Shown here: piece by piece, positions 22,392-25,286 of the stretch
How positions within the stretch are numbered: the stretch's first letter is position 1
How the letters are laid out: each line of letters opens with the position of its first letter
NCBI RefSeq assembly: GCF_000949635.1
Contig: NZ_BAFN01000001.1
Coordinates: 1,178,001 to 1,242,000 of the forward strand
Reading direction: 5' to 3'
From: Candidatus Brocadia sinica JPN1
Lineage (GTDB): Bacteria; Planctomycetota; Brocadiia; Brocadiales; Brocadiaceae
DNA: 64,000 nt
The notes under the pieces: model-generated
The model's database searches: none
The model's input: the letters and a program-made list of their open reading frames with translations, nothing else
Told to the model about the DNA's origin: nothing
Position numbers and translations under genes: made by a program

Positions 22392-23552
22392 CTATTCTCT
22401 TGGATTGGTATCCAGCACCTTACGATAAATCCGGAGCGTTTTTTCGATATTTGCTTCAAAGGAATACCTTTCTGCCTTTTGTCTTGCAGCTAGGCCGATT
22501 TGTTCCCTTTTTTCCTTTTCCAGAAGTACGTTAATATAATTTGCTATGTCCTTTGCATCGATGGGGTGGCTAATAACGAAACCATCTTGCCTGTGGGTAA
22601 TAATCTCTGATACGCCACTGGTATTGCTGGCAATAACCGGAAGTCCTGATGCCATTGCCTCAAGACAGGCAGTACCAAAGGCATCATACTCGCTGGGAAA
22701 AACAAAAATATCTCCCCCCCCGTATATCTCTTCAATTTGTTTGGATACCCCCGCAAAGACCACCTTGTCGAGAACGTCTTTTTCATCTGCGAGCCGTTGA
22801 TATTCCCGAACGTTTCCTTTCCCCACAACAAGCAATTTTACTTTTTGAGATTTATTAACCAGGGGCAATGATTCGATGACATATTTCAGTCCTTTTCTCT
22901 TGAAACCGGAACCAACAAATAACAGGAGAACTTCATCTGGTGCAATTCCGTATTTAGCCCTTACTGCATCTCTGTATCTTATTCTGTTTTGGGGCGTAAA
23001 TATACTGATATCTACCCCATTATAAATAACCTCTATGTCGCCTGGAGATAATTGATAATGGTGTATAATTTCTTCCCTGCATTGTTCGGAGATACAGGTA
23101 ATCTGCTTATAGTGTTTCCTTTTAAAAATAGCTCTTTCTAAAAACAGAAGGCTAAAGTGTCTTGGATTCAGGCATAGGAGAATCTTGCCAAACAGAGATT
23201 GCATCAAGGGGTAGGTATGCATCATATAGTCCCAGTGGCATCCCCCACCAACCCGGTAAATATCCTGAAACAAAGTCTGGGTAAATCCGTGAACAAGATC
23301 AAATTTTACCTGTGTTTTTTTAATAATCTTAGGGGCATTTACTGCAAATGTCCAGTATTTTAATGGTGACCAGAAGGTAATAGCTGGAACAGGATGGCAA
23401 ATTAATTCCCTATACCGGCCTTTACCAAATCGATGTGCAAATATATGAACTTCATGACCGCGACTGAGGAGTTGTTTGGATAAATGAAATACATAACTCT
23501 CCACACCACCTTTTTCCCTGATAAACTGATACACCACCAATGCAATTTTCAT
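22392..23552 (-). CDS. Glycosyltransferase family 4 (WaaG-like LPS core transferase)
   Basis: A 386-residue GT-B enzyme resembling WaaG, which adds the first glucose to heptose II of the LPS core. It shows YQFIREKGGVESYVFHLSK (glycine-rich acceptor loop), VEVIYNGVD-type sequence, LLFVGSGFKRKGL and FPSEYDAFGTACLEAMASGLP with the nucleotide-binding E residues. Its stop codon directly abuts the start of the double-kinase gene. As the first gene of the leftward cluster, its promoter should lie in 23553-23650, back to back with the candidate RNA promoter. Confidence 0.85.
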   Translation of the reverse strand: MKIALVVYQFIREKGGVESYVFHLSKQLLSRGHEVHIFAHRFGKGRYRELICHPVPAITFWSPLKYWTFAVNAPKIIKKTQVKFDLVHGFTQTLFQDIYRVGGGCHWDYMMHTYPLMQSLFGKILLCLNPRHFSLLFLERAIFKRKHYKQITCISEQCREEIIHHYQLSPGDIEVIYNGVDISIFTPQNRIRYRDAVRAKYGIAPDEVLLLFVGSGFKRKGLKYVIESLPLVNKSQKVKLLVVGKGNVREYQRLADEKDVLDKVVFAGVSKQIEEIYGGGDIFVFPSEYDAFGTACLEAMASGLPVIASNTSGVSEIITHRQDGFVISHPIDAKDIANYINVLLEKEKREQIGLAARQKAERYSFEANIEKTLRIYRKVLDTNPRE

Positions 23553-23628: not shown

Positions 23629-23657
23629 TTAGCAAAAATTAAATAATGTGATATAAT
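23629..23657 (+). promoter_or_regulatory. Sigma-70-like promoter for candidate RNA
   Basis: TTAGCA (23629-23634), a 17-bp spacer and a perfect TATAAT (23652-23657) precede the structured RNA. Transcription would begin near 23664 at GGAGAGG. Confidence 0.5.
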
Positions 23658-23663
23658 AAAAAT

Positions 23664-23970
23664 GGAGAGGAAAGAAGATGTGGGAGGTATGAGGTTAAAC
23701 ATCTCAGGATACAAAAGGGTTCAATAATGTATCTAAAAGTAACCACCTTCAATCCTCTCCAGCAAGTTCTTTGAAAAGTATCAGTAGCGTTTAAAACAGA
23801 CACGTGCAACAAAAAAAGAAAAGTTCAATAAAGGGCGTCGAGGTCTTTAAAGCGCTACTGTTAACTATAGAGCTTCCTTAACCCGATGGAAAAACAGAAA
23901 GGGGTATACGTAATGAGGAAGTCAGACAGGTAGCCTGATACATCAAGAATGATGTATCAGGCTATTTTTA
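23664..23970 (+). ncRNA. Candidate structured noncoding RNA with promoter and terminator
   Basis: About 305 nt between a good -10 box and a perfect intrinsic terminator, with no reading frame. Four helices can be paired by eye. (1) GGAGAGGA (23664-23671) pairs with TCCTCTCC (23753-23760) and is extended inward by GAAG/CTTC and GTGG/CCAC, enclosing a GATACA/TGTATC hairpin. (2) CAGTAGCG (near 23781-23788) pairs with CGCTACTG (near 23853-23860), continued by TTTAAA/TTTAAA with one bulged G. (3) CTTCCT pairs with AGGAAG (about 23872-23920), enclosing CCC/GGG. (4) The terminator stem. It lacks the conserved cores of RNase P, tmRNA, SRP RNA and 6S RNA. It lies alone between the LPS cluster and the cytochrome operon. 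Confidence 0.6.
23931..23969 (+). terminator. Intrinsic terminator of candidate RNA
   Basis: A perfect 14-bp stem, TAGCCTGATACATC (23931-23944) with GATGTATCAGGCTA (23951-23964) and loop AAGAAT, is followed by a T-run. The T-run exists only on the plus strand, which fixes the direction of transcription. Confidence 0.8.
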
Positions 23971-24035: not shown

Positions 24036-24160
24036 TTGCGTTATGCATAAATATCGGTTACAATTAAAACTACATATCTGTCAGGGCGCATCCAAAAAGA
24101 TTTAGGGTTGTTTTGTTGACCCTTTACAATACCTAAGCACTTTGCGGATGCGTCTTTTTT
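24036..24160 (+). ncRNA. Candidate small RNA with own promoter and terminator
   Basis: TTGCGT (24036-24041), a 17-bp spacer and TACAAT (24059-24064) form a good promoter. About 15-20 bp further, GCGCATCC pairs with GGATGCGT over 8 bp (one G-U) just before CTTTTTT near 24154-24160. Inside lie the nested pairs TTAGGGT...ACCC and CCTAA. The transcript would be about 90 nt. There is no reading frame. The T-run is on the plus strand only, so it is not the terminator of the leftward cytochrome operon. It could also be a read-through terminator of the preceding RNA. Confidence 0.45.
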
Positions 24161-24236: not shown

Positions 24237-25286
24237 TTACCGATTGTGGCAAACCGTACAATGAATACCCATAGGTTTTGGATGCGGCGGTTCGCCGGAC
24301 CTGCCCGGCGGATGGCAACCTAATTGGGTACAATTTCCAGCAAAGGGCGGGTGGGGGGAATCTATCGCCGAAGGATGCGCTGGATTGGGATGACATGCCG
24401 TACAATTGACCATTGACACGGGGAAATGGCAATTGAGACAATGGCGGTTCCTCGTATTTACACCGCCCCACGAAGCATTATGGCTTAAAGGAGTTGTGTT
24501 CTCATGACATCGAATACAAAAATCCTCCTGATGGCATACACTGCATTTCTTCCTGTCCCATGATGCCACAAAACCATGGGTCTTTCTGCGCCATGCATTG
24601 TTATGACTTTTCGGTTTTTGGTCCTGATGGCAATTTACACACCAGTAATTGTCATTGTGGCATCGCTTACAATAGTCTTGATTGTAATAGAACTCGCTAC
24701 CGTGTTTTTGTATCCAGTGTGGGTCATCATGTTTGACCCATCGGTCTTCGTGATACAGTGGCATACGATTCTTTTTGATATGCTTGTGGCAAACATCGCA
24801 TGCAATCTTGTCTTCCCCCTGTTCTTTGTGACATGGAATGCAGGCGCCAAACATATCCGGGATAAGATCCGGGGTAATTGCATCACTCTGTTCGATACCC
24901 GCATGACATTGATTGCACTCTACTTTGTTTTCGAGGTGTACCTTATGGGTAAATTTTAAATCCCGGTATTTTTTCGGGATATTGTGCTTAACCTTTATTT
25001 CCATGCCCGGCTTTGTATGGCACAACAGACAGGATTGAGGATTAGCGGTATCAAAATTTTTCATATGGCAGCTAAGACATTTTGCCATCTTGGGCCATTT
25101 TGGTTCGAGGTCATCTTTATAGGCATGACAAATATTACAATCCTTTAAACCCCTCTCCATATGCCTGGCATGGCTGTAATGGATTTCAGACTCTTTACAG
25201 CCTCCCAGCATCGTAAGAGTAACAAAAGTTACGATGGAAATTAGATAATAGAATTTTCTCATCCTAAATACCGGTAATTTAGGCAT
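24237..25286 (-). CDS. Multihaem c-type cytochrome lipoprotein (13 CXXCH plus one CX4CH)
   Basis: A 349-residue exported cytochrome. I count thirteen CXXCH sites from CNICH to the final CTVCH, and one unusual CX4CH (CTQLGCH) near residue 325, giving up to 14 haems. Many extra His residues can serve as distal ligands. The N-terminus (FYYLISIVTFVTLTMLGGC) is a lipoprotein signal with a plausible lipobox Cys, so the protein is likely membrane anchored on the periplasmic or outer side. ATG 25286 is used here; ATG 25262 gives a more typical signal peptide. With the upstream beta-barrel gene it resembles a porin-cytochrome electron conduit, which is inference. Confidence 0.9.
   Translation of the reverse strand: MPKLPVFRMRKFYYLISIVTFVTLTMLGGCKESEIHYSHARHMERGLKDCNICHAYKDDLEPKWPKMAKCLSCHMKNFDTANPQSCLLCHTKPGMEIKVKHNIPKKYRDLKFTHKVHLENKVECNQCHAGIEQSDAITPDLIPDMFGACIPCHKEQGEDKIACDVCHKHIKKNRMPLYHEDRWVKHDDPHWIQKHGSEFYYNQDYCKRCHNDNYWCVNCHQDQKPKSHNNAWRRKTHGFVASWDRKKCSVCHQEDFCIRCHENTTPLSHNASWGGVNTRNRHCLNCHFPVSMVNCTACHPNPAHPSAIDSPHPPFAGNCTQLGCHPPGRSGEPPHPKPMGIHCTVCHNR

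Follow-up and report, generated by a model that had tools for sequence, protein, structure and literature searches.

Positions 23664-23967 of the 64,000-nt stretch of DNA analysed here (the window) are, almost beyond doubt, a conserved RNA gene. By kind, it appears to be a bacterial non-coding RNA that stands alone and, unusually, carries a boxA, and on balance we favor a reading in which this untranslated RNA of about 304 nt would present a boxA of the rRNA type, bound by NusB and ribosomal protein S10. The elements that an earlier note had picked out from the letters of this stretch were all present at the places it gave, so that its observation was confirmed. The features, all on the + strand, are as follows.

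23629-23657, +, promoter: TTAGCA, 17-nt spacer, TG-extended TATAAT; start predicted at about 23664
23664-23967, +, RNA gene: about 304 nt, with transcript ends inferred from promoter and terminator
23664-23760, +, domain P1: closing helix 23664-23683 / 23743-23760
23664-23671 / 23753-23760, +, P1 pairing: GGAGAGGA / UCCUCUCC
23674-23677 / 23747-23750, +, P1 extension: GAAG / CUUC
23680-23683 / 23743-23746, +, P1 extension: GUGG / CCAC
23690-23706, +, hairpin P1b: inside P1
23707-23734, +, hairpin P1c: inside P1
23766-23777, +, probable boxA motif: GUUCUUUGAAAA, in the junction between P1 and P2
23782-23860, +, domain P2: CAGUAGCGUUU / AAAGCGCUACUG, with a long, A-rich conserved loop
23782-23789 / 23853-23860, +, P2 pairing: CAGUAGCG / CGCUACUG
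23798-23801 / 23843-23846, +, P2 inner helix
23873-23921, +, domain P3: CUUCCU 23873-23878 / AGGAAG 23916-23921
23897-23933, +, putative Shine-Dalgarno-like stretch and six-codon frame AUG..UAG (MRKSDR)
23928-23967, +, intrinsic terminator: 18 pairs, 4-nt loop, then U tract

The −10 box TATAAT, after which the start had been placed, was found at 23652-23657 and TTAGCA 17 nt before it (10 of 12 positions agree with the consensus, with an extended TG), and TTKGCA-like and TGTGRTATAAT-like elements are kept by almost all copies of the RNA that have an intact 5′ end. At the other end, the terminator and its U tract are present as claimed; its length is 18 pairs and not 14 bp. The fold has an energy of −96 kcal/mol compared to −61.5 kcal/mol (SD 4.5) for 100 dinucleotide shuffles (z = −7.66), none of which was as stable. 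No protein gene covers the RNA, in agreement with the claim that it is noncoding, and the overlapping open reading frames of at least 40 amino acids are all on the opposite strand. The locus thus has its own promoter and terminator and a covarying structure, with neither a co-oriented downstream gene nor a conserved long reading frame. Judged by comparative sequence, promoter, covarying helices and terminator mark it as an independent transcript, which would act in trans or as a particle. By eye, we also observed a second hairpin-like repeat about 120 nt past the terminator (24087-24160, + strand; GCGCATCC ... GGATGCGTC, then TTTTTT).

Every helix that had been named, in four sequential domains including the terminator, was found, and P1, P2 and the terminator covary across copies from the order. 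For P2 (28 sequences), both-sided changes were seen at 12 of 17 pairs, and 92.5% of the cells were paired compared to 83.8% after shuffling and 32 to 56% with the partner slid; although the alignment was sequence-based, the structure had been derived from these copies themselves. We also used an arm-swap test, which is alignment-free for the pairs and compares the duplex energy of each copy's own arms with that of arms exchanged between copies (39 of the 43 copies described below, after removing those at 90% identity). Own arms paired better than swapped arms in P1 (−16.1 versus −10.2 kcal/mol; 38 copies), P2 (−12.4 versus −8.6 kcal/mol; 39 copies) and the terminator (−20.8 versus −14.8 kcal/mol; 38 copies), with 0 of 2000 permutations as good in each case, an outcome that partly reflects kinship among the copies. 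The difference was weak for P3 (−7.1 versus −6.4 kcal/mol; 38 copies), though here, too, 0 of 2000 permutations were as good. The helix CTTCCT/AGGAAG is thus present in the window, but its covariation across the family is not convincing. Since the P3 3′ strand, AUGAGGRAGU, is conserved in sequence while the 5′ strand drifts, P3 is plausible in Brocadia-type copies but less certain for the family as a whole.

At the gathering score, neither the window nor any copy in 24 loci matched a family of Rfam 15, and a permissive search gave nine chance-level matches, all far below the cut-offs. Only two Rfam matches came from those loci, one to a tRNA and one to a c-di-GMP-I riboswitch, apart from the copy in L051; the riboswitch (L051 5510-5606) follows a copy in genome G018 at a distance of about 330 nt. 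The cores of RNase P, tmRNA and 6S RNA had been reported as absent, which holds, as none was matched and each RNA has a separate gene in the genome. RNase P RNA (RF00010) is encoded at C1:3054820-3055231 and tmRNA (RF00023) at C1:2384872-2385227, ARAGORN finding no tmRNA in the window. 6S RNA (RF00013), which had no match in the window or in the 24 loci with copies, is encoded at C1:962736-962915 and scores 41.9 bits against a cut-off of 46.4; this gene (L191) falls under the Rfam cut-off, as it does in many genomes of the family. The RNA described here resembles 6S RNA as a stand-alone, housekeeping-type RNA that might bind a component of transcription, but 6S RNA is one long bulged hairpin, whereas the anammox RNA has four sequential domains. 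OLE, GOLLD and ROOL are large, structured, lineage-limited bacterial RNAs without known function, and the anammox RNA is of similar character; unlike RNAs of that kind, it matches no Rfam family. By Rfam 15 and the literature in open-licence papers, it is a new RNA family.

A DNA search found three copies in the genome itself. The second lies at about C1:3941500-3941842 (82% identity over 206 nt), and the third, which is divergent, at about C1:1113620-1114010 on the minus strand. These paralogues had been missed by the earlier note. Most genomes of the genus, and other genera as well, have full-length copies that are about 70 to 83% identical. A covariance model of the P2 domain (R1) detected the RNA in 32 of the 62 genomes surveyed from the order (27/33 in family f1, 4/17 in f4, 1/2 in f5, 0/9 in f2 and 0/1 in f3), and all 24 matches in a 392-genome sample of the phylum fell inside the order; because both surveys were filtered strictly, weak relatives may be missed. 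An exact P1b pattern occurred in eight stretches in GTDB, from Ca. Brocadia species, B. carolinensis, a Brocadiaceae MAG and a Planctomycetota MAG; as for a phage origin, one exact pattern from P1b had no match in viral contigs. Across these surveys, the RNA appears specific to the anammox order. The suggestion of a new structured RNA, lineage-specific and regulatory or housekeeping, is supported: it withstands the Rfam test, and the candidate is conserved and covaries within one order.

Roughly half of the genomes of the order gave no match to the RNA, and many of these encode hydrazine synthase. Hydrazine synthase alpha was found in 39 genomes out of 61, among them members of family f2 and genus g14, in which the model finds the RNA in none or one, a comparison in which fragmented assemblies also miss the gene. 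The RNA is therefore not simply a marker of anammox, and a link to anammox catabolism was rejected because the occurrence of hydrazine synthase does not match that of the RNA.

For comparisons between copies, we used a set of 43 that span at least 280 nt. Not in this set are L038, which has lost its promoter and 5′ end, L051, and the partial copies L043, L045, L046, L048, L053, L057, L115, L116, L127 and L128; L038 and L019 (the same gene as L051) were included in A1 and A3.

The junction motif, which the earlier note had missed, is probably a boxA, as judged from its sequence and place. The Bacillus rRNA boxA is UGUUCUUUGAAAACU. In gamma-proteobacteria, the rRNA boxA reads GYTCTTTAANA (PMC5725501, in the part consulted). 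Given that GUUCUUUGAAAA resembles the known rRNA boxA, we examined the rRNA operons of the order. The motif is identical to the boxA in the 16S-23S spacers of sister genomes, and the identity between the window and these spacers extends over 14 nt; GYTCTTTRAAAA occurs once in the 64 kb, with 0.11 occurrences expected. When the operons were scored against GTTCTTTGAAAA, all 30 of the 16S loci with a readable spacer reached at least 10/12 (21 were perfect), as did all 29 leaders, and in 27 of these the match falls between about −83 and −139 relative to the estimated start of the 16S; in L152 and L165, the best leader match is outside the usual position and probably due to chance. The genome's own rRNA has GATCTTTGAAAA in the spacer and GTTCTTTTAAAA in the leader. 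Among the 43 RNA copies, 32 scored at least 11/12 (12 in 12 copies, 11 in 20, 10 in eight and 9 in three), these being best matches anywhere in the copy, which lie outside the junction in a few (L044a, L044b, L054, L101). By comparison, 9 of 2150 dinucleotide shuffles scored 11 and none 12, the scoring word having been taken from the rRNA spacer, but chosen after the RNA had been seen. None of three other RNA genes reached 11 in the part of the listed loci that was used (6S RNA, 0/11; tmRNA, 0/5; RNase P RNA, 0/7). Conservation was 1.32 bits per position for the motif, 1.36 for P1b, 0.89 for the P2 loop and 0.69 for P1c with its loops, and the thermodynamically predicted openness of the motif was modest (0.53 versus 0.41 overall).

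The motif agrees with the rRNA boxA of its lineage and is predicted to be unpaired, with exceptions in G021 and g6. Both G021 copies (L044) have lost it while the G021 rRNA spacers keep it, and in g6 copies it reads GUUCUCUAAAAA. Nor does the RNA motif track changes of the rRNA boxA between lineages (g14 spacers, GUUCUUUGGCAA; f4 copies, GUUCUUUGAAAY). Furthermore, the 12-mer occurs 30 times in the genome itself compared to seven times for the reversed control pattern. Eighteen of the 30 occurrences form pairs 2,379 bp apart, and three of the nine pairs were inspected and found to be the ends of insertion elements. This 2.39-kb insertion element has nine paired sites (e.g., C1:295614-298004 in L203, and L204 and L205), and its terminal repeats, GTAACACTTTAGTTCTTTGAAAAATTAACAAG, contain the boxA 12-mer in the three inspected pairs. 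The loss in G021, the change in g6, the lack of tracking, the modest openness and the occurrence of the 12-mer elsewhere all count against the boxA explanation, as does the failure to find the RNA in roughly half of the order.

These observations give some room, at a clearly lower probability, to the alternative that the RNA acts in trans and that GUUCUUUGAAAA serves another tertiary or antisense contact, its likeness to boxA being coincidental. GGUUAAAC in P1b is equally conserved, and the loss, the alteration and the unrelated occurrences of the 12-mer just described are as coincidence would have them. What weighs on the other side is that both the sequence and the position between two helices match the rRNA boxA of the order, together with the excess over shuffles and the lack of such a match in the three other RNA genes of the lineage.

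Comparison with known boxA elements does not extend to their surroundings. The RNA shares with the rRNA operon boxA, or Nus element, the GUUCUUUGAAAA motif in an untranslated, structured transcript, but here the motif is in a short RNA with a separate promoter and terminator. There is no consistent similarity to rRNA leaders or spacers beyond the motif; blastn gave scattered weak matches, the best of which (E = 6e-4) paired one copy with a leader from a different genus. As in the suhB 5′ UTR and other non-rRNA cases described in the consulted part of PMC5725501, boxA occurs outside rRNA, but those transcripts are mRNA leaders, unlike the anammox RNA.

In the reading we favor, that of an RNA presenting boxA, NusB and S10 (NusE) would bind the motif between P1 and P2, and would most likely load on RNA polymerase while the RNA is being synthesized. 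They would keep Rho off the untranslated transcript and help it fold, as on pre-rRNA, and may remain on the finished RNA. For the folded RNA, the role that we consider best supported would be connected with the synthesis of rRNA or the assembly of ribosomes. Because boxA comes about 100 nt into a 304-nt RNA, little would be left to protect from Rho, which counts against this reading.

A finished RNA could instead withhold NusB and S10 from the rRNA operons as a decoy and so tune rRNA antitermination, in the way 6S RNA holds RNA polymerase. We regard this boldest of the readings as rather unlikely, although a promoter close to consensus and a copy number of up to three per genome suggest abundance, and the RNA is terminated and has its motif flanked by stable helices; each RNA has one boxA only, and one lineage has lost it. 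Slightly less probable still is an RNA dedicated to regulating rRNA antitermination: it would be stable, present boxA to NusB and S10 and, in one subtype, also carry GGAGGUGAU, and would so link the supply of S10, NusB or 30S particles to rRNA synthesis. In that subtype, GGAGGUGAU is almost perfectly complementary to the 3′ end of the 16S rRNA. Growth is very slow in anammox bacteria, and if this were true, the RNA would be their antitermination counterpart of 6S RNA.

The Shine-Dalgarno-like stretch, which reads GGAGGUGAU in several copies, and the frame of five to eight codons behind it may be real or a by-product of P3 and the terminator. A dual-function RNA, with its 3′ domain translated from the AUG at 23913 into a peptide of five to eight residues, seems improbable to us. 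Of the 43 copies, 36 have an AUG behind the purine-rich stretch, and in 34 a stop follows within 10 codons, but the AUG is missing in six and replaced by GUG in one. The frame shifts in some copies, changes between K and E at codon 3 preserve pairing and not residue type, and UAGCCUGA of the terminator by itself supplies stops in two frames.

In the window, the RNA is divergent from a glycosyltransferase gene (22392-23552, − strand) and convergent with a multihaem cytochrome gene (24237-25286, − strand), neighbors that are kept in two sister genomes (L097, L099). A second position, which had escaped the earlier note, is the interval between panC and pyrI, occupied by the RNA in 13 loci (13 genomes, four genera). 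There, the RNA is convergent with a 149-amino-acid gene, identified as PyrI by Pfam in the genome's own copy (in L124, the contig holds just part of PyrI), and a divergent PanC homologue lies upstream in 13/13 loci, directly in nine and one or two open reading frames further in four. The remaining copies are in varied genomic places.

Some copies are truncated (L045, L048, L053, L057, L127, L128), which indicates that the family expands and decays. Among the remnants L053, L045, L048, L128, L057, L046 and L127, one is without P2, and several retain only the AUGAGGRAGU stretch and the terminator, preceded by unrelated sequence. The second copy of the genome itself (copy b, L038 5526-5842) has lost the promoter and the 5′ strand of P1; open reading frames upstream of it presumably resemble a transposase. 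Such truncated copies, and copy b without its promoter, would fit a non-functional dispersed repeat that spreads and decays with insertion elements, a reading we consider very improbable in view of the covariation, the conserved promoters and the one position kept in four genera. Weakest of all is a cis-acting leader, attenuator or riboswitch, which would explain the terminal hairpin but can practically be dismissed because no co-oriented gene lies downstream, the neighbors in the window being divergent or convergent and pyrI convergent in all 13 loci.

To our knowledge, anammox bacteria are without routine genetics. In open-licence papers, we found neither an anammox regulatory RNA nor a boxA-bearing regulatory RNA described. 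Kuenenia, anammox, Brocadia and Planctomyc do not occur in the available main text of PMC11109978, PMC8632094 and PMC6429828; in the portions consulted, PMC2864571 has one Planctomycetes entry (Rhodopirellula-1), PMC8058203 names anammox only in a reference, and in PMC7438415 the reads of 53 structural RNA genes were removed before analysis. Separate small RNAs are also the class set aside by the published boxA survey, in the part of PMC5725501 consulted. Existing metatranscriptomes offer a concrete place to look for this RNA, which recurs in several copies across the order with its promoter and structure conserved. Should NusB and S10 bind its boxA, the antitermination factors of rRNA would also serve, or be controlled by, a separate small RNA.
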